Assembly (NCBI RefSeq): GCF_000384415.1
Contig: NZ_ARVU01000001.1
Location: 2,046,001-2,110,000, forward strand
Direction: 5' to 3'
DNA: 64,000 nt
Source of the DNA: Cycloclasticus pugetii PS-1
GTDB taxonomy: Bacteria > Pseudomonadota > Gammaproteobacteria > Methylococcales > Cycloclasticaceae
The position numbers and the translations under genes were made by a program. The notes below the pieces were generated by a model. It was given only the letters and a program-made list of their open reading frames with translations. It ran no database searches and was not told the origin of the DNA. Position 1 is the stretch's first letter; each line of letters begins with the position of its first letter. Of the stretch, positions 44,950 through 60,618 are shown one piece after another.

Positions 44950-45510
44950 TTAATGGGAAACACCATCTCTTTTAAGCACCTTGAGAAACGTTAACCAAAG
45001 GATATAAATATCGAAGAAAAATGAGCGCCGATGCTTGTATTCAACATCTAGCTCTACTTTTTTGGATATAGGCAGCTCATCTCGACCATTAACCTGAGCC
45101 CAACCTGTTAAACCAGGCAACATTTCATGAACACCATTTTTAGTCCGTAGGGCAATCAAGTCACCCTGATTAAACAACGCTGGACGAGGCCCCACGAAGC
45201 TCATGTCTCCTTTTAAAATACACCATAGTTGCGGCAGCTCATCTAGGCTTGATTTGCGCAAAAAACCACCAATTGGCGTTAACAAACTTTTAGGATCCTT
45301 TAGCAAATGAGTGGCAACTGCGGGCGTATCTGTTTTCATGCTACGGAATTTAGGCATTTTAAAAACATCATTATTAATGCCTACTCTATCGGACCAATAT
45401 AAAGCCCCCCCTTTTGACGTTAGTCTAACCAAAATAGTCACAACACAAATGGGAATAAAAAAAATAATAACAGCATTGATAGCCAAAATTAAATCAGCGA
45501 GCCTTTTCAT
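44950..45510 (-). CDS. Initiating sugar-phosphate transferase (PglC/WcaJ-type)
   Basis: Monotopic phosphoglycosyl transferase that starts glycan synthesis by moving a sugar-1-phosphate onto undecaprenyl phosphate. The 186 residues match the minimal form: an N-terminal re-entrant hydrophobic helix (about 6-28), then [10 protein letters not shown], the catalytic-type segment [25 protein letters not shown] (in parts, with the conserved DE pair) and [16 protein letters not shown]. It overlaps the upstream SDR gene by 17 nt. Together with the dehydratase and SDR, the donor may be UDP-QuiNAc (inference). Confidence 0.93.
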
Positions 45511-46456: not shown

Positions 46457-47215
46457 CTAACCCCAAGGGTTAAATAACTGAAAAAACTTTATCGGCAAGC
46501 GAAGGAATACAAACCAGAAGTTTGAATACACACCATTTTCATTTAATGAACGGGCTATCTCTTTGGTTGAGACCCAATAGCTTTTAAAGCCTGACGTACT
46601 GGCACCTCCTAACCTCATTCTAACTAACGTCTTATCTAATTTTGTGTACTTAAACTTATGCTTCACTAGTACTCGAATAAACATATCAAAGTCAGCAGCA
46701 ATTTTATACCCTACTTTATACAAACCAACTTCATTGTATACTGCCTTCTTAATAAATGTCGCGGGGTGGGCAGGCATAAACCCAAACCGCATCTTCCAAG
46801 GCGAAAAGTTAAAAGAAGAGTACTTTCGAACAGGCTTAATTAAATTACGTTCCGAAACAAAATCGACATTACCAGACAATAAAGCAATACCCTCATTTTG
46901 CTTAAATACATTCACTACTTTAGAAATAACATCTGGACTAGAGTAAAAGTCATCGGAATTCAGGACACCAATTATATCACCTGTTGCTAGCTCTATCCCT
47001 TTATTCATCGCATCGTAAATCCCCTTATCTGGCTCACTAATTACGTGATGAATTTGATCAGCAAATTGATTTACAATTTTGAGTGTCCCATCGTTGGACC
47101 CTCCATCAACAATAATATATTCAATGTCAGTGTAGGACTGAGATAGTACTGAATCAATAGATGACCGTATGACTAAGGAGGAATTATAGCAAACTGTAAC
47201 AATCGAAACTTTCAT
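46457..47215 (-). CDS. Family 2 glycosyltransferase
   Basis: GT-A-fold transferase of 252 residues. The N-terminus VSIVTVCYNS, the acceptor region IEYIIVDGGSNDGT, the stretch ISEPDKGIYDAMNKG and the DxD-equivalent LNSDD near residue 90 are typical of WcaA/WcaE-like GT2 enzymes. I chose ATG at 47215 (MKVSIV); the frame extends six codons upstream without improvement. Sugar and linkage are unknown. The enzyme is probably cytoplasmic and extends the lipid-linked glycan. Confidence 0.9.
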   Translation of the reverse strand: MKVSIVTVCYNSSLVIRSSIDSVLSQSYTDIEYIIVDGGSNDGTLKIVNQFADQIHHVISEPDKGIYDAMNKGIELATGDIIGVLNSDDFYSSPDVISKVVNVFKQNEGIALLSGNVDFVSERNLIKPVRKYSSFNFSPWKMRFGFMPAHPATFIKKAVYNEVGLYKVGYKIAADFDMFIRVLVKHKFKYTKLDKTLVRMRLGGASTSGFKSYWVSTKEIARSLNENGVYSNFWFVFLRLPIKFFQLFNPWG

Positions 47216-47283
47216 CACTATAAAGCCGAACATGTTCTCTTGCCCAAGGGCTTATCGCTTACATTAAAGCAAATCAAGGTCGA

Positions 47284-48249
47284 TTAACTTCGTAAAGATT
47301 CCGCTGCATTCACAAACCATTCATATGTCCTTTCTAGGCCGGCCTCTAAACTTGTGCCCGCGCTCCAGCCTAGCCGTTTTAATCGCGTCACCTCCATCAA
47401 TTTACGAGGCGTACCGTCTGGCTTGCTACCATCAAATATCAACTTCCCTTCAAACCCTACAACCTTAGCCATTGTTTCTGCCAATTCACGAATGGTGCAA
47501 TCAACCCCTGTACCAACATTAATGTGCGACAACATCGGCTCTGTATGAGCTTGATACATTGCATTATCTAGGTTCATCACAAAAACACTAGCTGCCGCCA
47601 TATCATCAACATGTAAAAACTCACGCATTGGCTTGCCTGTACCCCAAACGGTTACTTCTTGGTCACCTGCTAATTTTGCTTCATGAAAACGGCGCATCAT
47701 CGCAGGTATCACATGTGAATTTTCAGGGTGGAAGTTATCATTTTTACCATACAAATTAGTTGGCATCACCGAACGATAATCAACACCATATTGGCGATTA
47801 TAAGATTCACACAACTTAATGCCTGCAATCTTAGCAATAGCATATGGCTCATTAGTAGACTCTAAGATCCCCGTCAATAACTCGGACTCTTGCATGGGCT
47901 GTTTTGCCAACTTAGGGTAAATACAAGATGAACCAAGAAATAGTAGCTTTTTTACACCCCCTACATAGGCCTGGTGAATAATGTTTGTCTCAATCATCAG
48001 GTTTTGATAAATAAATTCAGCCGGGTATTCATTATTCGCATATATCCCTCCCACTTTAGCAGCCGCCAAATACACTTGGTCAATCTTTTCTTGTTGAAAA
48101 AATGTAGTCACGTCTGCCTGCGACACCAAGTCCAACTCACGACGTGTCCGCGTAACCAGCTCAACGCCTTTTTCCTGCTGTAGTTGACGGACAATTGCTG
48201 AACCGACCATACCCTCATGACCTGCTATAAAAATTCGTTTTGCAGCCAT
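47284..48249 (-). CDS. fcl: GDP-L-fucose synthase
   Basis: Bifunctional epimerase-reductase that converts GDP-4-keto-6-deoxymannose to GDP-L-fucose. The 321 residues show the NADP motif [17 protein letters not shown], the [10 protein letters not shown] segment, [20 protein letters not shown] with the catalytic YxxxK, and [11 protein letters not shown], matching WcaG/Fcl. It directly follows gmd with a one-base gap, the normal pairing for fucose donor synthesis. Confidence 0.95.
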
Positions 48250-48250
48250 C

Positions 48251-49372
48251 TTAATTCTCTACGGCTATCGCTACATCATGCCCGTGCGATCTCAATAAAG
48301 CATGACGTTTTGCAATATCAAGATCATGAGCCACCATTTCAGCGCACATTTGTTCAACCGTAATGTCTGGTACCCAGCCGAGTTTTTCTTTGGCTTTTGC
48401 TGGATTGCCCAACAAAGTTTCCACCTCAGTTGGACGGAAATAACGCGGGTCAACTTTGACAATCACATCTCCCACCTTAACACCAGGCAATGACTCATCT
48501 GATAGAAATCTAACTATCCCTACTTCATTTAAACCTTCCCCACTAAATTCTAATTCAATGCCCAGCTCAGTAGCTGAGAGTCGCACAAACTCACGCACAG
48601 AAATTTGCTTTCCCGTAGCAATTACAAAGTCTTCTGCAGTTTCCTGCTGCAACATCATCCATTGCATACGCACATAATCTTTTGCATGCCCCCAATCACG
48701 TAGCGCATCCATATTACCTAGGAACAAGCACTCCTCTAAGCCTTGAGAAATATTACTCAAGGCCCGAGTAATCTTACGAGTAACAAAAGTTTCACCACGA
48801 CGAGGCGACTCATGATTAAACAAAATACCATTGCACGCATACAGACCATAAGCTTCACGGTAGTTAACTACAATCCAATAGGCGTACATCTTGGCCACAG
48901 CATAAGGTGATCGCGGGTAGAAAGGAGTCTTCTCCGTTTGAGGAACCTCTTGAACTTCCCCAAACAATTCTGATGTAGAGGCTTGATAAAAACGCGTTTT
49001 CTTTTCTAAACCTAATATACGAATCGCTTCCAATATCCGTAACGTGCCCATCGCATCAACATCTGCCGTATATTCTGGTGACTCAAAAGACACAGCCACA
49101 TGACTCTGAGCCCCGAGATTATATACCTCATCAGGCTGAACTTGTTGCAAAATACGCGTAAGGTTGGACGTATCAGTTAAATCACCATAGTGCAAAAAAA
49201 ACTTTGGATTATCAATGTGTTGATCTTGATAAATATGGTCAACTCGTTCAGTATTAAATGAAGATGAGCGGCGCTTAATACCATGAACTTCATACCCTTT
49301 ATCTAATAACAACTCAGCCAGATAAGACCCATCTTGGCCCGTTACGCCTGTAATTAAAGCTCTCTTATTCAT
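48251..49372 (-). CDS. gmd: GDP-mannose 4,6-dehydratase
   Basis: First step from GDP-mannose toward GDP-fucose. The 373 residues have the NADP motif [14 protein letters not shown], the [15 protein letters not shown] segment, [20 protein letters not shown] with the catalytic Thr/Ser-Glu pair, [21 protein letters not shown] (in parts) and [17 protein letters not shown]. Length and motifs are normal. GDP-mannose supply genes (manB, manC) are not in the window. Confidence 0.96.
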
Positions 49373-49483: not shown

Positions 49484-50368
49484 TCAAATACTAGGCAGCC
49501 TATAAACACTTATATAGGCCACTGTGTTTACGATAAAGTAAATCGCTTTTGATAGCTCAAGTCCACCAAGTTTTCGTTTACCATGACGCTGTAGAATTCT
49601 GGCTATTTTAAACAAATATTGAGCTCGAAAAGACTTTTCTCCAAACTTAATTCTTTCGAAAGCCGCTAACTCAAAGACCCTACTCGACCTCACTGTTAGT
49701 GACTTATTATTATCATGCAACCTGTACCCAGCAACTATATTTGAGACCTCTAACCAAGAATGCTTCAAAAAAGCATTGTAAAAAAACACCACATCAAACA
49801 CATAGTTAAACTCTTTGGGCCACACATTTTCATCGTAAACATGTCTTTTCCAAAAGGTTGCCGGTTGTATTACCGCGGTTCGGTAAGGCATCAAATCAAA
49901 ACTATCTAAAGGGTGGTAACGATAATTTATACGTTTCATCCAATTCCCATCTATATCGATATAAGCCCCACCAAAGCTAATTATTTCGGTCGATCGATTT
50001 AGCTTAAAAGCATTAACCACCAAACCAAACACATCATCATCCAGATAGCAGTCATCTGCATTTAAAAAGCACAAGATGTCACCAGATGCAAACTGAAATG
50101 CTTTAGAAATAGCATCTGCTTGCCCAGCATCTTTTTTACTTATTAATCGAAATCTTTCGTCTTCACCGCAAAACCTCTCAATAATTTCCAACGATCCATC
50201 GACAGAACCGCCATCAGCAATTAATACCTCATAATTAGCGTAATATTGCCTTTTAATACTAGCAAGAGCCTCCTCTAAGAAACAAGCATAGTTATATGAC
50301 GGCACTGCGATACTAATTTTTAACTCGTCATCCACTCTACATCCACTTTTTAATAAAAAGGCATTCAC
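49484..50368 (-). CDS. Family 2 glycosyltransferase
   Basis: GT2 enzyme of 294 residues with ISIAVPSYNYACFLEEAL, NYEVLIADGGSVDGS, the SKKDAGQADAISKAF segment and the metal-binding-type LNADDCY near residue 105. The GQADAI motif groups it with transferases that act on polysaccharide repeat units, related to the C-terminal domain of the large fusion protein on the other strand. Its first 15 residues precede the fold and may not all be translated. It is the first gene of the minus-strand polysaccharide run. Confidence 0.88.
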   Translation of the reverse strand: MNAFLLKSGCRVDDELKISIAVPSYNYACFLEEALASIKRQYYANYEVLIADGGSVDGSLEIIERFCGEDERFRLISKKDAGQADAISKAFQFASGDILCFLNADDCYLDDDVFGLVVNAFKLNRSTEIISFGGAYIDIDGNWMKRINYRYHPLDSFDLMPYRTAVIQPATFWKRHVYDENVWPKEFNYVFDVVFFYNAFLKHSWLEVSNIVAGYRLHDNNKSLTVRSSRVFELAAFERIKFGEKSFRAQYLFKIARILQRHGKRKLGGLELSKAIYFIVNTVAYISVYRLPSI

Positions 50369-50674: not shown

Positions 50675-51463
50675 TTGCTAACAACAGCCTATAACCATAA
50701 AAGCCTTATTTTTGAGTTATTAAAAAGGGACTTCAAATCACGTTACCTTGACTCAATTTTTGGGCTCGCTTGGGCGTTTATAACGCCCTTAATTATGCTT
50801 GCAATGTATAGTTTAGTTTTCGGCTTTGGGTTAAGAGGAGCCCGAAATGGCATGCCTATAGATAACGGAGAGTATGTTTTAATGCTCTTTTCCGGCCTAA
50901 TCATTTATTTTGCAACATCTGAATGTATTACGAAATCTGTCCGAGTTATCTTAAAAAATCAAACACTCGTAAAAAAAGTCATCTTCCCTGTTGAAATTTT
51001 ACCTGTCATTATTTGCATTTCATCATTACTTCATCTTTTTATTTCGCTGAACATTCTATTAATTGCTTACGCTGTACTAGTCGCCCCCCCTCCTATTCAG
51101 ACTTTCTACATTCCCTTATTGATAGCTATTTGCTTTCCGATGCTCTTAAGCCTCTCCTGGTTAATTGCGGCCTTAGGGACGCTCTCAAGAGACATCGAAC
51201 AAATAACAGGACTACTTGCCCGTGGAATATTATTTATCTCCCCTGTTCTATATCGATTCGAGAACCCTCCTTATATATTAGATGCATTAATAACCATCAA
51301 CCCAATATCACTGATAGTAGAGCAAATGAGAACTATTGTTTTCAATCATTCAGCACCAGACTTTTCGGCTTTAGCTATTTATTTTGTTCTTTCATTAATA
51401 TCCTCTTGTTTGGCATACTTGTTTTTTATGTCCATGAGGAAACACTTTGCTGATTTAATATGA
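50675..51463 (+). CDS. wzm: Polysaccharide ABC exporter permease (Wzm/KpsM-type)
   Basis: Inner-membrane part of an ABC exporter of polysaccharides, 262 residues with six predicted helices. It carries the ABC-2 signature regions LIFELLKRDFKSRYLDSIFGLAWAF (in part) and the middle LVKKVIFPVEILPVI, which fit O-antigen/capsule exporters. The start is a TTG with no strong ribosome site; no in-frame ATG lies nearby. Its last bases overlap the ATPase gene start by 4 nt. Confidence 0.92.
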   Translation: MLTTAYNHKSLIFELLKRDFKSRYLDSIFGLAWAFITPLIMLAMYSLVFGFGLRGARNGMPIDNGEYVLMLFSGLIIYFATSECITKSVRVILKNQTLVKKVIFPVEILPVIICISSLLHLFISLNILLIAYAVLVAPPPIQTFYIPLLIAICFPMLLSLSWLIAALGTLSRDIEQITGLLARGILFISPVLYRFENPPYILDALITINPISLIVEQMRTIVFNHSAPDFSALAIYFVLSLISSCLAYLFFMSMRKHFADLI

Positions 51464-52224
51464 ACGACTTAACCTGCATCACCGTTTCCAACTTAAGCAA
51501 GTGTTACAACATATCCCACTCCCATTTATCTAAAATACTCTGTATGTTTTTTAGCTCCTATAAAAAAGGGATCAAAGAACTCTGGGCTGTCAAAGACGTG
51601 TCTTTCAGTGTTAGCAAAGGAGAGTCCATTGCTATTATTGGAAGAAATGGGGATGGGAAAAGCACTCTATTAGAATTACTAACTGGCACTAGAAAGCCAA
51701 CTAGTGGCACCATTAAAATTGAAGGAAAAATTGCTGCCCTGCTTCAGCTAGGCAGTGGGTTTAATTTGGATTACACCGGCATCGAAAACATCTATTTCAA
51801 TGGTCTCCTCTTTGGCTTAACCAGATCACAAATCAAAAATAAACTTGAAGAAATCATAGCCTTCTCTGGCATTGGTAATGCAGTTAACCAACCTATTAAG
51901 GAATACTCTAGCGGAATGAAAGCTCGCCTTGCTTTTTCAGTTCAAATCGCTCTAGAGCCAGATATTTTAATTATCGATGAAGCCTTAAGCGTTGGCGACT
52001 CCTTCTTTCAAGATAAATGCAAAGAGCATTTAAAGAAATTACAAAAAAATGGAACCACTATTCTCCTAGTTACGCACAACATGAGCTCCATTGACGGTTT
52101 TTGTGATCGCGCCATAGTCCTTAACAAAGGCACTTTAGTTTTTGATGGCTCGCCTAAACAAGCCATTGAATTTTATCGATCAAAAACCACAAAACCACAA
52201 AAAAACTCAAACCCATGGGAATGA
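51460..52224 (+). CDS. wzt: Polysaccharide ABC exporter ATPase (Wzt/KpsT-type)
   Basis: ATP-binding subunit paired with the preceding permease. It has Walker A GRNGDGKST near residues 61-69 (with D for the usual A/S), the Q-loop region LLQLGSGFNLDYTGIENIYFNG (in part), the signature YSSGMKARLAF and Walker B ILIIDEALSVGD. At 254 residues it lacks the C-terminal carbohydrate-binding domain of O9a-type Wzt proteins, so export is probably not linked to recognition of a terminal cap. A sulfotransferase gene follows after 4 nt. Confidence 0.93.
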   Translation: MNDLTCITVSNLSKCYNISHSHLSKILCMFFSSYKKGIKELWAVKDVSFSVSKGESIAIIGRNGDGKSTLLELLTGTRKPTSGTIKIEGKIAALLQLGSGFNLDYTGIENIYFNGLLFGLTRSQIKNKLEEIIAFSGIGNAVNQPIKEYSSGMKARLAFSVQIALEPDILIIDEALSVGDSFFQDKCKEHLKKLQKNGTTILLVTHNMSSIDGFCDRAIVLNKGTLVFDGSPKQAIEFYRSKTTKPQKNSNPWE

Positions 52225-52228
52225 TAAA

Positions 52229-53053
52229 ATGAGAGATATTGAAGAATTTTTAAACCAATTAACATTACCACCCTCTACATCTGAAGCCCCCAGCGTTTAT
52301 GCCTTTTCCCTTCATAAATCTGGCAGCACCCTATTGTTTAATATGTTAAGTGATTTAGCGCCCCATGCTGGCCTTACATACTTTAGCATGCAAGACCAAA
52401 TGTTTATTAATGGGATAATGCCAAACTCAGAAATCCCCAACTCAAAACTATTTTTTAAACCCAAAGGCTACCTGTATGGTGGGTTCCGTTTTTTTCCACA
52501 GGCATACAAATTAGAGAACTTAAATAACCATAAAAAAATATTACTAATAAGAAACCCAATGGACGCTTTAGTTTCCATGTATTTTTCAAGAAAAAAATCA
52601 CACGCCATACCAAAAAAAGGCCTGCTTCGTGAGGTTTGGTTAAAAAGAAGAGAGAGCGCAGACGCCCAAGACATCGAAGCATTTGTGAAAGAAAAATATA
52701 AATCACATATTAAGCGAATCAAAAGCTACAAAGAAATCCTTTCCCAAGACAATTGCGTTATCTATAGGTACGAAGACATCATTTACGACAAACTATCATT
52801 CCTTAAAAACATCTGCCAACAGTATGGATGGGTTATTGAAGAAAAAATTCTCACAAAAATTGTTAATAAATATGATGTTTTCCCTGAAACTGAAAAAGAA
52901 GAAAGTCATGTAAGACAAGTTCACCCGGGGAATTATAAAAAAAAGCTGTCAGCTGAAACGCAACAATTTCTAGAGCTCGAGTTCCAAGATATATTGGAAG
53001 CCTTCGGGTATTCTGTTAGCCCAACATCTGCATTCAGTCGGCTTTCAGCTTAG
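52229..53053 (+). CDS. PAPS-dependent sulfotransferase-like protein
   Basis: Predicted carbohydrate sulfotransferase of 274 residues. The 5'-phosphosulfate loop is visible in SLHKSGSTLLFNML (residues 27-40) and the 3'-phosphate-binding region in ILLIRNPMDALVSMYFS (about 106-122), with the conserved Arg and Ser. The ATG at 52229 lies 4 nt after the wzt stop and follows GGGA; the frame extends upstream into wzt but has no ribosome site. It is cytoplasmic (no signal or membrane helix), so sulfation would precede export. The acceptor sugar is unknown. Confidence 0.87.
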   Translation: MRDIEEFLNQLTLPPSTSEAPSVYAFSLHKSGSTLLFNMLSDLAPHAGLTYFSMQDQMFINGIMPNSEIPNSKLFFKPKGYLYGGFRFFPQAYKLENLNNHKKILLIRNPMDALVSMYFSRKKSHAIPKKGLLREVWLKRRESADAQDIEAFVKEKYKSHIKRIKSYKEILSQDNCVIYRYEDIIYDKLSFLKNICQQYGWVIEEKILTKIVNKYDVFPETEKEESHVRQVHPGNYKKKLSAETQQFLELEFQDILEAFGYSVSPTSAFSRLSA

Positions 53054-53066
53054 CATCCTCTTAAAT

Positions 53067-55664
53067 ATGCCTCCAGACTTAAAGATCATTATTTGTGGCA
53101 TGCCACGCTCCATGACGACGTGGATATTCAATGTCGCTGCAGAACTCTTAAGTGATAATGACGTGCAAACACTGTGGATAGCGCCAGATGACCAAGATGC
53201 TGAAGGTGCCTTCACAACCTCTAAAGGTATTTGTCTAGCAAAGTGCCATCATTACAGCAAAACACTTGCAGAACATGCTGATTTAACCATCTATTCTTTC
53301 AGGGACATTAGAGCAGTGGCAGTTAGTTGCTACAGAAAATTTGACTTACATTACTCTTCTGATGAAATTACTTCTTGGCTAGATGCACACAAGCAATGGA
53401 CGAGCAGTGCCGACATATCAATACGCTATGAAATTGCGAACAGCAACAAAGAATCAACGTTAGTCGAGATAAAGGAGTTAATTAACAATATAAGTCCGCA
53501 CCTACAACTGCATGAAGATGAACTTATGTTGCATAAAATTGATAAAAAATTTACATGCAAACAGACCTCAGAATCAAACTCTTATTCTCCCAAAGATATG
53601 GTACTCGGGCAACATAGAACGTTTCAGCCCGACCCCGCACACCTCAGCGGTATCGAAAAACAAATATATCAACAAACCCAAGAAGATTTTTCAACTTGGC
53701 TACAACAAAATGGATACATCACGATGGATGAATACGGTCAGGAAATAGAATACAATATAGCTAGGGAGTTTTTTTCTCAATTTAAGCAACCCTATGTCGT
53801 CGATATCGGTGTCGAACGCGGTAGTTTTATAGACTTAGCCATCAAATCGGGCGCTGGTAAAGTTGACGGTTTTGAACCTTTACCTCGACACCTTGATAAC
53901 CTCCGCAAAAAATATGAAGCGTCTAATGTCGTTTCAATCAACCCCTACGCTGTTTCAAATGAAACAGGCTCCGCACAATTTCATGTGGCTACTGATAACG
54001 ATGGAAATGAGCTGGACTACCATCACACATTGAGTGACCTGGGGGACTCTTCCACGGTAAATAGAAGCAACACAATAGTAGAAGTTAAAACATGTACGCT
54101 GAAAGATTTTTTTAGTGGCAAGCCCGAGCAAATTGACTTTCTAAAAATAGATACCGACGGTCATGATTTGAATGTTCTACACGGACTAGGTAGTTTACGA
54201 CCAACCATTATCATGGCTGAGTATTGGAACGACTTACCCGAAACAAGTGGCGCGAATTCTTATACTTTAGAAGACTTAGTGATATGGGCAGAAAGCAATG
54301 GTTATCCAGAATCAGTTATTGTGCGTAGAAACGGCTCAATCGAAGTCATTGAAAGAAACATGCCCTGGTCCATAAGCGGTGACTGGGGAAATGTATTCTT
54401 TGTTCACCAACGTTTTGATTTCAACAACATAAAAACGTTTATTAATGAACAATCCAAAAAATCATATCAATCAATATGCTCCCATGTTAACCAGCTTATA
54501 GCAGGGTTAGAAGAAAAAGAAGCCGTAATACAAGAGCAGTTAAAAGAATTGCAAACAAAAGAAAGTGTTATTCAAGAACAAAAAACTGCATTGCTTGGAA
54601 AACAAGCCGTAATACAAGAGCAGTTAAAAGAATTGCAAACAAAAGAAAGTGTTATTCAAGAACAAAAAACTGTATTGCTTGAAAAACAAGCCGTCGCATA
54701 TGAGCTATCCAAATCAATTTGTAGACAGCTAATACACCGCTGCAAGATTATACCAATCTACTTTAAGTTAAAATTTAACCGCCTCGCCCGTCCGCGTTTA
54801 GGTTGGTTGAGGCAATACTCTCCTAGGCCATTAAAAACTCCGCCTAACGATAAAGTAGTACTGACACATTCACCTAAACTCTCTATCGTTACACCATCAT
54901 ATGGACAAGCCAACTTTATAGAAAGAACCATAAACAGTGTATTAAACCAAGAGTACCCTAACCTTGAGTACTTCATACAAGACGGTGGCTCGACCGATGG
55001 TACTGTAGAGGTCCTTAAGAAAAATGGACACCTGTTAACAGGCTGGAAATCAGAACCTGATAACGGACAATCTCAAGCTATCAACCGTGGGTTCTTGAAC
55101 ACATCGGGGGAGATTATGGCTTGGCTGAATTCCGATGACTTATTATTACCAGGTGCAATAAACACCGTTATTGAATATTTCAACCAACACCCCCATATTG
55201 ATGTAGTATATGGCAATCGATTGATGATTGATGATGATGACATGGAAATTGGCAGATGGATTTTACCTGACCACTGCGAAAAGACTTTAGCTTGGGCTGA
55301 CTATATACCTCAAGAGACCTTATTTTGGAGGCGCTCCATTTGGGAAAAGGCAGGTGGCAAAATAGATGAGTCTTTCCAATTTGCTATGGACTGGGATTTA
55401 TTGATGCGTTTTTACAATGTAGGCGCTACATTTGGCCATATTCCTCAATTTTTAGGCGCGTTCCGTGTTCACTCTCAACAAAAAACATCTGCCGAAATGG
55501 ATAAAATAGGCATTGAGGAGATGAACATCATACGAACAAGAGAACTAGGTTATACACCAACAATAAAAAACATTAGGAAATCAATTTTTCCATTCATGCT
55601 TAGACACTTTATTGTTGATCTGAAATTTCGTATAAAACAGCGCTACAGCGCAGCAAGGTCATAA
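53067..55664 (+). CDS. Three-domain fusion: sulfotransferase-like, FkbM methyltransferase-like, GT2 glycosyltransferase
   Basis: An 865-residue multidomain protein. Residues 1-225 resemble a sulfotransferase (IIICGMPRSMTTWIFNVAAE; IYSFRDIRAVAVSCYRKF as a 3'-phosphate site). Residues 235-440 resemble an FkbM-type methyltransferase (VVDIGVERGSFIDLAIKSGA; GFEPLPRHLDNL; the acidic motif FLKIDTDGHDLNVLHGL). Residues 470-560 form a coiled coil with two near-identical 28-residue repeats. Residues 600-830 are a GT2 domain (LSIVTPSYGQANFIERTI; YFIQDGGSTDGT; WLNSDDLLLPGA near 687). Such a protein could modify and extend one acceptor. The start is ATG at 53067, 13 nt after the sulfotransferase stop. Catalytic activity of the first domain is the least certain. 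Confidence 0.88.
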   Translation: MPPDLKIIICGMPRSMTTWIFNVAAELLSDNDVQTLWIAPDDQDAEGAFTTSKGICLAKCHHYSKTLAEHADLTIYSFRDIRAVAVSCYRKFDLHYSSDEITSWLDAHKQWTSSADISIRYEIANSNKESTLVEIKELINNISPHLQLHEDELMLHKIDKKFTCKQTSESNSYSPKDMVLGQHRTFQPDPAHLSGIEKQIYQQTQEDFSTWLQQNGYITMDEYGQEIEYNIAREFFSQFKQPYVVDIGVERGSFIDLAIKSGAGKVDGFEPLPRHLDNLRKKYEASNVVSINPYAVSNETGSAQFHVATDNDGNELDYHHTLSDLGDSSTVNRSNTIVEVKTCTLKDFFSGKPEQIDFLKIDTDGHDLNVLHGLGSLRPTIIMAEYWNDLPETSGANSYTLEDLVIWAESNGYPESVIVRRNGSIEVIERNMPWSISGDWGNVFFVHQRFDFNNIKTFINEQSKKSYQSICSHVNQLIAGLEEKEAVIQEQLKELQTKESVIQEQKTALLGKQAVIQEQLKELQTKESVIQEQKTVLLEKQAVAYELSKSICRQLIHRCKIIPIYFKLKFNRLARPRLGWLRQYSPRPLKTPPNDKVVLTHSPKLSIVTPSYGQANFIERTINSVLNQEYPNLEYFIQDGGSTDGTVEVLKKNGHLLTGWKSEPDNGQSQAINRGFLNTSGEIMAWLNSDDLLLPGAINTVIEYFNQHPHIDVVYGNRLMIDDDDMEIGRWILPDHCEKTLAWADYIPQETLFWRRSIWEKAGGKIDESFQFAMDWDLLMRFYNVGATFGHIPQFLGAFRVHSQQKTSAEMDKIGIEEMNIIRTRELGYTPTIKNIRKSIFPFMLRHFIVDLKFRIKQRYSAARS
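54522..54689 (+). repeat. Two 84-nt tandem repeats in the fusion-protein coiled coil
   Basis: Copies at 54522-54605 and 54606-54689 differ at two bases only (A/V and G/E codon changes). Each encodes 28 residues (four heptads) beginning AVIQEQLKELQTKESV, so loss or gain of a copy keeps the frame and the coiled-coil register. The near identity at DNA level points to a recent duplication. Confidence 0.95.
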
Positions 55665-56024: not shown

Positions 56025-56810
56025 TTAGCTAATGGATGAAACAATAAAAAAAGGATTCAGTAAATTTTGTTTATTATATACAAGCGGTTTTGAGATCCCA
56101 CCCTTATTAAACTCACATACCTTCATTCCAGCGCATAAAACAACCGCGTGTGCCGCAGCCGTGTCCCATTCCATTGTTGGCCCTAGTCTTGGATAAATGT
56201 CAGCTTCACCTTCTGCAACGAGACAAAGCTTCAAGGAACTACCAATGGATACTAGCTCTTTGACTTTTTCTGTTTTTATCTCATCAATGAATTGTTTTGT
56301 TTCATCAGACAGATGCGAACGACTAGCTACTACTTTATAGCTATCGCGCTGCTCAGCTCGTTTTAACGGTAGAGCCTGCCCGTCTTTAAAGGCCCCTTCG
56401 CCTTGCTTAGCCCAATACATTTGCCCCAGCGCTGGCGCATACACCACGCCTAAAACAGGCATGCCTTGATTTATTAAGGCAATATTGACGGTGAACTCAC
56501 CATTTTTTTTGATAAATTCTTTAGTACCATCTACAGGGTCAACCATCCAGAAGTAGTCCCAATCCTTTCTATCCTGATAAGGAATATTTTTGCCTTCTTC
56601 TGACATCAAGGGGATTAGCCTATTATTCTTTTGATCCAGCTCTTTTAAGCCTTGTTCTATAATCTTATGCGCCGCCGTATCGGCCTCAGTCAGTGGCGAT
56701 TGATCAGCCTTAAACTCAACCTCAAAATCTTTTTGATAAATATCCATAATGGCATCACCTGCTTTTTTTGCGAGTGCCACAATGTCTTCTATGTTTATAT
56801 TATCTAACAT
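56025..56810 (-). CDS. cysQ: 3'(2'),5'-bisphosphate nucleotidase CysQ
   Basis: Mg-dependent phosphatase that hydrolyses 3'-phosphoadenosine 5'-phosphate (PAP), the by-product of PAPS use. The 261 residues have the inositol-monophosphatase-fold motifs LMSEEGK, VDPVDGTKEF near residue 90 and EWDTAAAHAVVL near 215. It lies 2 nt after cysC. Its presence fits a locus in which sulfotransferases generate PAP. Confidence 0.94.
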   Translation of the reverse strand: MLDNINIEDIVALAKKAGDAIMDIYQKDFEVEFKADQSPLTEADTAAHKIIEQGLKELDQKNNRLIPLMSEEGKNIPYQDRKDWDYFWMVDPVDGTKEFIKKNGEFTVNIALINQGMPVLGVVYAPALGQMYWAKQGEGAFKDGQALPLKRAEQRDSYKVVASRSHLSDETKQFIDEIKTEKVKELVSIGSSLKLCLVAEGEADIYPRLGPTMEWDTAAAHAVVLCAGMKVCEFNKGGISKPLVYNKQNLLNPFFIVSSIS

Positions 56811-56812
56811 TT

Positions 56813-57406
56813 TTAAATATATGCGTTCTTTTTAAGGTAAGCCACAACTTCCGTAGCCGCCTCTTCAATACTAATGCCGTCGTTAACAACATGCAGCTCA
56901 GGGTTTACCGGCACCTCATAAGGTGAGTCGATACCCGTAAAGTCTTTAATCTCTCCTGCACGCGCTTTTTTATATAACCCTTTAGGATCTCTCTGCTCAC
57001 AAACCTCTAATGGTGCATCAATAAACACCTCCACAAACTGGCCTTGCATGGCCATATCTCGCACCATTTGACGGTCCTTAGCAAACGGGGAAATAAACGC
57101 AGTAACGACAACCAAGCCTGCATCACAAAACAAGTTAGCCACCTCACCTACGCGGCGGATATTTTCTATTCGATCTTCTTCACTAAAGCTAAGTCCTTTA
57201 TTAAGCCCTTGCCTCACGTTATCGCCATCGAGCAAATAGGTGTGCTTCTTCATCGCAAACAGTTGATTTTCTACTGCATTAGCAACCGTTGATTTACCAC
57301 TACCACTTAAGCCGGTAAACCATAAAATACAAGGTTTTTGTTTTTTTAAAATAGAGCGCTGCTTTTGACTAATATGATGCTCATGCCATACCGTGTTTGT
57401 ACTCAT
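56813..57406 (-). CDS. cysC: Adenylylsulfate (APS) kinase
   Basis: Phosphorylates APS to PAPS. The 197 residues show the P-loop GLSGSGKST at residues 32-40, the substrate-binding [41 protein letters not shown] and [15 protein letters not shown], all canonical. It lies 11 nt after the DUF2061-APS-kinase-like gene and 2 nt before cysQ. It should be the active APS kinase of the pair. Confidence 0.95.
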
Positions 57407-57416
57407 TTATTTACCC

Positions 57417-58142
57417 TTATTTGATGTAATGCTTTTTAACGTACTTAACAATTACTTCAACTGACTTGTCAACTGACAAAGCATCCGTATCAACGACTAC
57501 TTCGGCATGCTCAGGTTCCTCATATACCTCATCGACGCCAGGAAAGTTTTTAAACTCCCCACTTAAGGCTTTTGCGTAAGCACCCTTATGATCACGCTTT
57601 TTACACGTTTCGATGTCTGCCTTTACGTAAACAACAATATTATTTCTGACCATTTCACGAATTGCTCTGCGTGATTCTTTATACGGTGAAACAAACGAGG
57701 CAACAGTTGACACTGAATTGTTCTGCAAGGTACAAACAAGGTTGCCAATACGGTGCATATGACGATTTCTATCGTCCCTTGTATAACCAATATTCGGGAT
57801 GAGGTCCCGAATATCTTTTGAATCTATCCGCTCAATGGGGATATCAAGCTTTTCAAGTTGCTCAAAAACTTTATCAGCAATGGTCGTTTTGCCACTCAGT
57901 GGTAAGCCGGTAAACCAAAGATTGAAAGGCTCTATTCTTTTTTTCCCCCAGCGCACTTTTAGCCAAGCCTTTTCGTGCAGCCAAAAAAGTCCAATTTTTA
58001 AAACACTTTCCAGCAACCCCGTTGCAATAGCAAGATCCAGTCGACCAAAAAACACGTAGACAATCAGCATCGTTGTTGTTGTCGCAACAATACGCCACGT
58101 CACCCCTTTGATAAGAGAGCGCTTATTCGTTTCTTTATACAT
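57417..58142 (-). CDS. DUF2061 membrane domain fused to divergent APS-kinase-like domain
   Basis: A 241-residue fusion. Residues 1-68 form a DUF2061-type membrane domain (RSLIKGVTWRIVATTTTMLIVY, in part, then LDLAIATGLLESVLKIGLFWLHEKAW) with two helices. Residues 72-241 form an APS-kinase-like domain with P-loop GLPLSGKTT (79-87), FVSPYKESRRAIREM and KKRDHKGAYAKALSGEFK. The APS-binding DGDN motif is replaced by DSKD and the NIRRVGEVA segment by HMHRIGNLV, so substrate or activity may differ from CysC. It lies between cysN and cysC. It may anchor sulfate activation at the membrane. Confidence 0.88.
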   Translation of the reverse strand: MYKETNKRSLIKGVTWRIVATTTTMLIVYVFFGRLDLAIATGLLESVLKIGLFWLHEKAWLKVRWGKKRIEPFNLWFTGLPLSGKTTIADKVFEQLEKLDIPIERIDSKDIRDLIPNIGYTRDDRNRHMHRIGNLVCTLQNNSVSTVASFVSPYKESRRAIREMVRNNIVVYVKADIETCKKRDHKGAYAKALSGEFKNFPGVDEVYEEPEHAEVVVDTDALSVDKSVEVIVKYVKKHYIK

Positions 58143-58261
58143 CCGTGTATTCTACGTCCTATCCCTAAGAATTTTCATTAACTATTTTCGTTAACTTATC
58201 GACCTTCGCAAGCCGGATTATGAGCCCTGCTTCCATGCAGTGACTAACACCAAGTGATTCT

Positions 58262-59704
58262 TTACGAGAGCAAATCATCAATCGATCGACAGCCCCATTC
58301 GGGAAAGTGCTGTCTAATCAATACATTTAAATCTTTTTCAAAAGCACTGTATTCTTTTGCTGATTGCCCGTTTGCGGCAACAGTAGATTTCTCTTGAATC
58401 ATACCCGCCGCTAACGTGGCGTGAGTGTACTTATCAATCACAATAAAGCTACCCGTTCCCTTTACATCGGCATATGCGTCAAAAGCAATCGCTTGCTTCA
58501 GCGATAAGCGGCAACGAGCAATTTCATTGAGTTGCAATTCACTGGCTTCAATTTTTTCTAATGTATTAACATCGACCTTATGATGAATCTGCTCAAACCT
58601 ACCTGGCACAACATTACTGGCCCTTTTGATTAGGTAATCCACCCCTGTATTCATCGCCGTTTCATTCATCCACACCAAGGTGACATCTAGCTGGTCAGCG
58701 ACGTCTGGAAGATCAGTCGTTTTCACAATCATATCGCCACGACTAATATCCACTTCATCTTCAAGCGTCAAGGTGACCGCCATTGGCGCAAATGCTTCGC
58801 TAACATTCATTTCGCTTTCACTAACTGCGGGCTGAATTACCTGTTTAACCACTGACGTTTTTTGCGATGGCAGCACGGTAATACTATCACCCACCTGGAT
58901 ACTACCCGCCGCAATGGTGCCGCAAAAGCCTCTAAAGTCCAAGTGTGGACGGTTTACGTACTGTACTGGTAAGCGGAAGTTTTCAAGATTTACCGTATCT
59001 TCAAGCGGAATCGTATCGAGCTGCTCCATCAACGGCGCATCGGTATTCCATGGCATATTTTTGCTGGCATTAACAACGTTATCACCAGTCAACGCTGACA
59101 CGGGAACAAACACAGGCGAGTTGATACCCACCTCTTTTGCAAACGACTGATACTCGTCTTTAATTTCATTAAAACGCTGTTCGCTAAATTCAACCAAATC
59201 CATCTTATTGACGGCTACCACAATATGCTTAATACCCAACAAACTTGTAATATAGCTATGACGTCGTGTTTGTGTTTGCACACCATAACGCGCATCAATG
59301 AGAATAATCGCTAAATCGGCTGTAGACGCACCGGTTGCCATATTTCGCGTGTACTGCTCATGCCCTGGGGTATCTGCAATGATGAACTTACGTTTGTCCG
59401 TGGCGAAAAAACGATATGCCACATCAATTGTAATGCCTTGCTCACGTTCAGATTGCAAGCCATCAACCAGTAAAGCCAGATCAACCGCTTCACCTGTTGT
59501 ACCGTGCTTTTTAGAGTCATTATTAATTGCCGCCAACTGATCTTCAAAAATCATTTTACTGTCATGCAGTAAACGTCCAATTAACGTACTTTTCCCATCA
59601 TCTACGCTACCACAGGTAATAAAACGTAATAATTCTTTGTTTTCATGTTGCTTCAAATACCCCTCGATATCAGATGCAATCAAGTTATTTTGCTCAACAG
59701 CCAT
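58262..59704 (-). CDS. cysN: Sulfate adenylyltransferase subunit 1 (GTPase)
   Basis: GTP-driven large subunit of ATP sulfurylase. The 480 residues have the GTPase motifs GSVDDGKSTLIGRL near residue 31, DTPGHEQYTRNMATGAS and VAVNKMDLV, followed by elongation-factor-like barrels. It does not carry a C-terminal APS kinase, unlike NodQ/CysNC fusions; that activity is supplied by the separate genes downstream. Its ATG shares one base with the cysD stop. Confidence 0.96.
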   Translation of the reverse strand: MAVEQNNLIASDIEGYLKQHENKELLRFITCGSVDDGKSTLIGRLLHDSKMIFEDQLAAINNDSKKHGTTGEAVDLALLVDGLQSEREQGITIDVAYRFFATDKRKFIIADTPGHEQYTRNMATGASTADLAIILIDARYGVQTQTRRHSYITSLLGIKHIVVAVNKMDLVEFSEQRFNEIKDEYQSFAKEVGINSPVFVPVSALTGDNVVNASKNMPWNTDAPLMEQLDTIPLEDTVNLENFRLPVQYVNRPHLDFRGFCGTIAAGSIQVGDSITVLPSQKTSVVKQVIQPAVSESEMNVSEAFAPMAVTLTLEDEVDISRGDMIVKTTDLPDVADQLDVTLVWMNETAMNTGVDYLIKRASNVVPGRFEQIHHKVDVNTLEKIEASELQLNEIARCRLSLKQAIAFDAYADVKGTGSFIVIDKYTHATLAAGMIQEKSTVAANGQSAKEYSAFEKDLNVLIRQHFPEWGCRSIDDLLS

Positions 59705-60618
59705 TAGAAATACCCCTCAATCTTTTTCTTCTCCATCGACCCTGATTCATCATGGTCTATCAATCGCCCCTGGCGCTCGGATACTTTGGTTAGCAGCATT
59801 TCTTGAATAATTTCAGGCAATGTTTCCGCTGTAGACTCCACTGCCCCTGTTAGCGGGTAACAACCCAGCGTCCTGAAACGCACCTTCTCCATCACCGCCT
59901 TGTCACGTAACTCTTCAGGCATGCGCTCGTCATCGACCATTATTTTGGTTCCACCGTACTCAACCACTGGGCGTTCTTTTGCAAAATACAAATCAGGAAT
60001 AGGTATCCCTTCAAGGTAGATATATTGCCAAATATCGAGCTCAGTCCAATTAGATAACGGAAATACCCGAATCGACTCCCCTTTTTGATGGCGCCCATTA
60101 TAGGTATCCCATAATTCTGGGCGTTGCGCCTTTGGGTCCCAACGGTGATTTTTATCGCGGAATGAATAAATTCGTTCTTTAGCACGTGACTTTTCTTCGT
60201 CACGACGAGCGCCGCCAAACACCGCATCATATTGATAACTATCTAACATCTGGCGCAGGCCTTCTGTTTTCATGATATCGGTATGCATCGATGAGCCATG
60301 TTCAAATGGAGATATGTTTAGCTCCTTACCCTTTGGGTTAATATAGACAATCAAGTCCATACCCACTTCTTTGGCCCGCTTATCTCGAAACTCGATCATT
60401 TCTTTGAACTTCCAAGTGGTATCGACATGCACCAAAGGAAACGGCGGTTTGGCAGGAAAGAACGCTTTTTGTGCCAGATGCAACATCACCGAAGAATCCT
60501 TACCTACACTATAAAGCATTGCCGGGTTATCAAATTCAGCAATCACTTCACGTATAATATGCACAGACTCCGCTTCTAAGCGCTTCAAATGCGTCAGTTG
60601 TTTTTTACTTATAACCAT
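59704..60618 (-). CDS. cysD: Sulfate adenylyltransferase subunit 2
   Basis: Catalytic small subunit that joins sulfate and ATP to APS. The 304 residues contain the PP-loop-like [19 protein letters not shown] (in part), [22 protein letters not shown] (in part), [19 protein letters not shown] and [20 protein letters not shown] (in part). It is the first gene of the cysDN-apsK-like-cysC-cysQ-ferredoxin operon, divergent from the GlcF-like gene across a 73-nt AT-rich promoter region. Confidence 0.96.

Follow-up and report, generated by a model that had tools for sequence, protein, structure and literature searches.

The window that we analyzed is a 64,000-nucleotide stretch of the genome of Cycloclasticus pugetii PS-1. 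It contains a gene for an 865-amino-acid protein (P0001) in which a predicted sulfotransferase (ST), an FkbM-family methyltransferase, a predicted helical spacer, and a family 2 glycosyltransferase (GT2) are joined in one reading frame. This gene and its surroundings are listed below; L041 is from a second species of the same genus (genome G009).

44950..45510 (-), initiating sugar-phosphate transferase (PF02397, E = 1e-54)
46457..47233 (-), second GT2, shared by the two species (57% ortholog in L041; phmmer similarity to other GT2s)
47284..49372 (-), two sugar-nucleotide enzymes (orthologs at 82% and 73% in L042)
49484..50368 (-), GT2 that accompanies the fusion in each of the two species (PF00535, E = 4e-27; 57% ortholog in L041)
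50675..51463 (+), Wzm, ABC-2 permease (PF01061, E = 3e-17)
51460..52224 (+), Wzt, ABC transporter ATPase without a C-terminal carbohydrate-binding module (PF00005, E = 1e-22; no Wzt_C match)
52229..53053 (+), stand-alone sulfotransferase beside the fusion (PF00685, E = 2e-8)
53067..55664 (+), fusion protein P0001, ST-FkbM-coil-GT2 (865 amino acids, ATG start; 59% full-length ortholog, L003/L041)
53067..53741 (+), within the fusion, predicted PAPS-dependent sulfotransferase fold, residues 1–225 (AF2 model, Foldseek against the PDB, motif alignment)
53742..54407 (+), FkbM-family methyltransferase, residues 226–447 (PF05050, TIGR01444; ortholog 68% identical)
54423..54731 (+), predicted single long helix or coiled-coil spacer, residues 453–555 (AF2 model)
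54513..54694 (+), 84-bp tandem repeat within the coil (2.2 copies; the two full copies are 81/84 identical)
54789..55661 (+), linker RPRLGW..PRPLK, GT2 domain, and C-terminal helix, residues 575–865 (PF00535)
56025..60618 (-), putative PAPS supply genes (open reading frames; same set in L042 at 75–93% identity)

We take the two sugar-nucleotide enzymes to be a GDP-mannose dehydratase and a GDP-fucose synthase (named by eye from the sequence). The PAPS supply genes are presumably CysQ-like, CysC, a membrane-anchored APS kinase, CysN, and CysD, again named by recognition of their sequences. Wzm, Wzt, the stand-alone sulfotransferase, and, as the last gene, the fusion are tightly packed into one operon, in which neighbors overlap or lie less than 15 bp apart. 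The PAPS genes are convergent to this operon, and the two GT2s, the GDP-fucose-like genes, and the PF02397 initiator lie upstream. No Rfam RNA was found around the fusion gene.

Two of the three catalytic domains are clear from profile searches. The FkbM domain matches PF05050 at residues 246–383 (E = 1e-15; 58.8 bits versus a cut-off of 22.7) and TIGR01444 (E = 4e-18; 66.3 versus 37.7 bits), and the GT2 domain matches PF00535 at residues 606–729 (E = 3e-24; 86.1 versus 23.3 bits). Across 17 aligned sequences, D639, D690-D691, and D775-W-D777 of the GT2 domain are invariant, so both DxD-type and acidic catalytic residues are present.

The first domain of P0001, in contrast, matches no sulfotransferase family in Pfam at E values up to 10. 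The ortholog's N-terminal domain gives matches that fall under the cut-offs, to PF13469 (E = 3e-4; 21.7 bits, with a cut-off of 27) and to PF00685 (E = 4e-3). Searching the PDB with the domain's sequence gave nothing significant (best match 1aqu, E = 0.1), whereas a fold search succeeded. Specifically, the AF2 model of the domain (pLDDT 83, pTM 0.81) was compared to the PDB with Foldseek, and the 19 best matches were all sulfotransferases (TM 0.5–0.6); named matches are SULT1C1 (E = 7e-6), SULT7A1, and Teg12. Also, the motifs GMPRSMTTW (residues 11–19), RDIRAVAVS (79–87), and Y121-E122 align with those of other sulfotransferases. In an alignment of 10 sequences (P0001, its ortholog, and eight further sulfotransferases encoded in the window and in related loci), R79, S87, Y121, and E122 are invariant, and domain 1 has both the 5'-phosphosulfate-binding loop and the 3'-phosphate-binding R...S motif. 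Because the PAPS site aligns and the model matches sulfotransferases in the PDB, we consider residues 1–225 to be a divergent PAPS-dependent sulfotransferase fold, putatively active. A uridine-cytidine kinase does turn up lower in the structural ranking (E = 4e-4 and above), as might be seen if the domain were some other P-loop enzyme, but this is very improbable given the 19 better matches, the presence of both PAPS-binding motifs, and the PAPS genes that adjoin the fusion and co-occur with sulfotransferases. The original prediction, which placed three domains in one 865-residue frame, was thus right about all three (FkbM and GT2 by profile, sulfotransferase by fold and motifs); it had named the sulfotransferase fold beforehand as a point on which it could fail, and structure prediction bears that fold out.

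The fusion is real, because a full-length ortholog exists in the second species: an 882-amino-acid protein with the same domains and 59% identity end to end, which rules out a frame or assembly artifact. By part, the identity is 55% for the ST domain, 68% for FkbM, 38% for the coil, and 67% for GT2. The FkbM motifs and R79 and S87 of the PAPS site are kept in both proteins. At codon positions 1, 2, and 3, the nucleotide identity is 0.69, 0.75, and 0.41 for the ST domain; 0.73, 0.85, and 0.46 for FkbM; and 0.75, 0.81, and 0.40 for GT2. Since third positions are far more diverged than first and second positions, this comparison of coding sequences indicates that all three catalytic domains are under purifying selection.

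The exact ST-FkbM-coil-GT2 architecture was found in these two genomes only, among the genomes of the class and order, plasmids, phages, and IMG/VR. When we searched with the N-terminal domain (as a single sequence against 369 genomes from the class, and as a two-sequence profile against 201 genomes from the order), the only full matches were to the two orthologs, which rules out a common architecture. The plasmid search hit the FkbM part only, the phage search hit the GT2 side only, and IMG/VR gave no match to the fusion. We found no description of an ST+FkbM+coil+GT2 fusion in the full texts searched; sulfotransferase terminators may have been predicted before, for instance in the census of chain terminators by Mann et al. 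2019 (PMID 31504498). The suggestion that this domain order is not a described architecture therefore held up: it is rare, and we found no published description. Each part and the logic of the layout are already known, and what appears to be new is the combination.

Several more distant proteins share parts of the architecture. Four (L022–L025) share with the fusion its GT2 subfamily, a coil, and an FkbM domain. Three of them, from betaproteobacterial records (L022–L024), are FkbM-coil-GT2 and differ in lacking a sulfotransferase. The fourth, a 914-amino-acid protein from a Chloroflexi MAG (L025:8025-10769), has a sulfotransferase at its C-terminus instead (FkbM-coil-GT2-ST; PF00685, E = 2e-7), which is the same set of activities permuted. 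It lies 1.7 kb downstream of Wzm/Wzt, and that Wzt has no carbohydrate-binding module. A locus from an Ornatilinea MAG (L034:1057-8353) encodes a 1108-amino-acid ST-ST-coil-GT2 protein, Wzm, Wzt, and two more sulfotransferases. It resembles the fusion locus in combining sulfotransferase domains, a coil, and the same GT2 subfamily beside Wzm/Wzt, but it has no FkbM domain, it has two ST domains, and its Wzt carries a Wzt_C domain. Another relative (L069, from G597) has an unannotated N-terminal domain before the coil and a GT2 that is 65% identical to that of P0001. Because the relatives include FkbM-coil-GT2, FkbM-coil-GT2-ST, ST-ST-coil-GT2, and another N-terminal domain before coil-GT2, their sequences suggest a single coil-GT2 chassis with exchangeable modifying domains. 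In Alteromonas (L037), a stand-alone sulfotransferase is immediately followed by a stand-alone GT2 that shares 50% identity with that of P0001; this is the pair unfused.

The relatives also bear on whether both N-terminal domains are catalytic. The FkbM-like domains of L022–L024 lack the KIDTDGHD-type motif, domain 1 of P0001 is too divergent for Pfam, and its phosphate-binding loop reads PRSMTTW instead of PKSGTTW. These features would fit a fusion that serves only co-expression or complex assembly, with one of the N-terminal domains being non-catalytic (glycan-binding or structural). We consider this unlikely, as R79, S87, and the FkbM motifs are kept in both orthologs and purifying selection on all three domains is strong.

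Between the FkbM and GT2 domains, AF2 draws residues 453–555 as one helix with modest confidence (pLDDT mostly about 60–79). The original prediction had a repeat-bearing coiled coil here. The repeat and a modeled helix are present; the heptad signal is weak (p about 0.03 on 64 residues, and not significant by another measure), and a Fourier test for heptads in the 100-residue core of the coil was not significant. Unlike the catalytic domains, the coil has near-equal identity between the two orthologs at codon positions 1, 2, and 3 (0.55, 0.52, and 0.50), yet the length from FkbM to RPRLGW is similar (127 versus 133 amino acids). Coiled coils that act as molecular spacers are described as diverging in sequence while keeping their length (PMC5082667). 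Divergence at similar length is spacer-like in the same sense, for n = 2 sequences of which one, P0001, carries a recent duplication (the 84-bp repeat). The similar length is weak evidence because there are only two orthologs.

The transporter has a different history from the fusion. The second species keeps the gene order Wzm-Wzt-ST-fusion-GT2-GT2, but its Wzt is just 39% identical and its Wzm just 17% identical to those in the window, as compared to 59% for the fusion and 50% for the neighboring sulfotransferase (whose relative in the Alteromonas locus is 40% identical). The transporter thus has a separate ancestry, and the biosynthetic genes have moved as a set: judging from these identities, the transporter pair is swapped between the species, and the fusion and neighboring sulfotransferase are kept. 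In the second species, the stand-alone sulfotransferase and the fusion are separated by a region (L041:15890-17126) that holds broken frames with a sulfotransferase start, MIIWLASYPRSGNTLMRN, as well as a coil-like piece, KEKVIQGL; it reads as the remains of another sulfotransferase gene.

The sulfate donor would be supplied by the adjacent PAPS genes. Among 18 genomes from the genus, the second, membrane-anchored APS kinase is present in eight, all of which are among the ten with PF00685 sulfotransferases, and both are absent from the other eight (one of which has a distant CysC match only). This co-occurrence is significant if kinship is ignored (Fisher p = 0.001), and it holds for genomes that are at least 90% complete (5/5 with a sulfotransferase versus 0/5 without; p = 0.008, again ignoring kinship). 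In the window, this second APS-kinase-like protein (57417-58142, minus strand) is encoded beside an ordinary CysC and has a membrane segment at its N-terminus. Seven more genomes from the genus have it at 80–89% identity, and every one of them also has sulfotransferases. CysH is present in 17/18 genomes, including those without the second APS kinase, so PAPS here is apparently used for sulfation and not for assimilation.

The layout of the fusion resembles those of known terminator-polymerases. In ORF6 of the Klebsiella pneumoniae O7 locus, a methyltransferase-kinase is separated by a coil from two GT2 modules (PMC11231755). As in the fusion, the modifiers and GT2 are at opposite ends of a coil in one polypeptide from a wzm/wzt ABC locus; ORF6 has a kinase where the fusion has ST, another type of methyltransferase, and two GT2 modules rather than one; the likeness considered here is one of layout. 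WbbB from K. pneumoniae O12 follows the same logic, a coil setting its modifier apart from its glycosyltransferase. In WsaE from Geobacillus stearothermophilus, a methyltransferase domain lies ahead of two GT domains, and a WbaP-type enzyme acts as the initiator (PMC2943079). WsaE is like the fusion in combining methyltransferase and glycosyltransferase in one (trifunctional) protein of an ABC-transporter pathway, its initiator compares with the PF02397 initiator at the fusion locus, and its methyl group is presumed to cap the chain; it differs in having two GT domains, no sulfotransferase, and no stated coil, and in acting on a Gram-positive S-layer glycan. WbdD from E. coli O8/O9a is also a methyltransferase on a coiled-coil protein, but it lacks a polymerase domain; its partners are WbdA and a Wzt that bears a carbohydrate-binding module. 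The second activity of WbdD from O9a is a kinase, whereas the fusion combines an ST fold with FkbM and has no kinase profile match.

These comparisons support, in part, the original prediction of a WbdD-type device for combined capping and length control: the coil-spaced arrangement of modifier and GT matches O7 ORF6 and WbbB (compare WsaE). The full form is unsupported. In characterized capped or terminated O-antigen systems, Wzt carries a carbohydrate-binding module that reads the cap (PMC11231755), but Wzt in the window (254 amino acids) and at the ortholog's locus (231 amino acids) have the ATPase domain PF00005 only. Since Wzt lacks this module, export is probably not gated by a cap.

Our best explanation, to which we give a probability of roughly 45%, is that the fusion is a coil-spaced polymerase and end-modifier of a sulfated, methylated glycan, with length control. 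The fusion would be a cytoplasmic assembly enzyme for a surface glycan that depends on an ABC transporter. Close to the membrane, the C-terminal GT2 would extend the lipid-linked chain by a sugar, and the helical, coiled-coil-like spacer, which has about 100 residues and would span 15 nm at full extension, would keep FkbM and ST away from GT2. The non-reducing end would come within reach of these two domains only after sufficient chain growth, and they would then methylate and sulfate it. The three folds, the conservation of the PAPS site, the conserved fusion, the operon context, the co-occurrence with PAPS genes, and the spacer-like coil argue for this explanation; we infer catalytic activity, the chain end as the modified position, and a stop in growth upon modification. 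Arguing against it are the Wzt without a carbohydrate-binding module, the difference in transporter pairs, the weak heptad signal, and the small number of orthologs (two). Also, despite the O-antigen-like ABC export locus, the genome of C. pugetii (G000) has no profile match to PF04932 (WaaL-type ligase or Wzy) or to PF05159 (KpsS/KpsC capsule); its one match to Wza-type PF02563 is far from the fusion locus. Length control by the fusion is plausible, but because Wzt has no cap-reading module and the transporter pair is swapped, we take it as no more than a possibility. It is rather doubtful that sulfate and methyl together are the chain terminator, with one polypeptide polymerizing, measuring by its coil, and capping for an exporter that does not read the cap.

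A tentative but serious contender is decoration without length control: ST and FkbM would act on residues along the growing chain, or on its end, during extension by GT2. The fusion would then tether the modifiers to the glycosyltransferase, and the transporter would set the chain length, as in Klebsiella O1/O2, where Wzt lacks a carbohydrate-binding module and length is set by coupling to export (PMC11231755). In Klebsiella O1, a terminal pyruvate merely diversifies the product, and the transporter exports both forms (PMC11231755). Similarly, Wzt lacks the module at both fusion loci and at the Chloroflexi locus with ST, FkbM, and GT2, and the transporter is swapped between species. That the operon encodes a second sulfotransferase, which stands alone, suggests that each chain is sulfated more than once. 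On the other hand, decoration alone leaves the long helical spacer and its spacer-like divergence unexplained. The missing module and the behavior of Klebsiella O1/O2 are why we hold length control at no higher a probability and take decoration seriously.

If the fusion is active, sulfation would join the chemistries known at the far end of the coil in ABC-dependent glycan assembly, and one compact protein could be used to make bacterial glycans that are sulfated and methylated. The locus separates a coil-spaced modifier from a cap-reading transporter, which are usually paired, so that their roles are separately testable.

Other long sulfotransferase open reading frames in sibling species are of different types (TPR-sulfotransferases, NRPS-like, or other) and are not ST-FkbM-coil-GT2. 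Three loci (L088, L089, and L091) encode TPR-sulfotransferase proteins of 508–710 amino acids, so that the genus also has a different kind of multidomain sulfotransferase. A further candidate fusion of GT2 and sulfotransferase in the genus, a 602-amino-acid protein from G013 (L093:190-1998), has a putative N-terminal GT2 and a C-terminal sulfotransferase, as judged by eye and from a weak match to PF00685.
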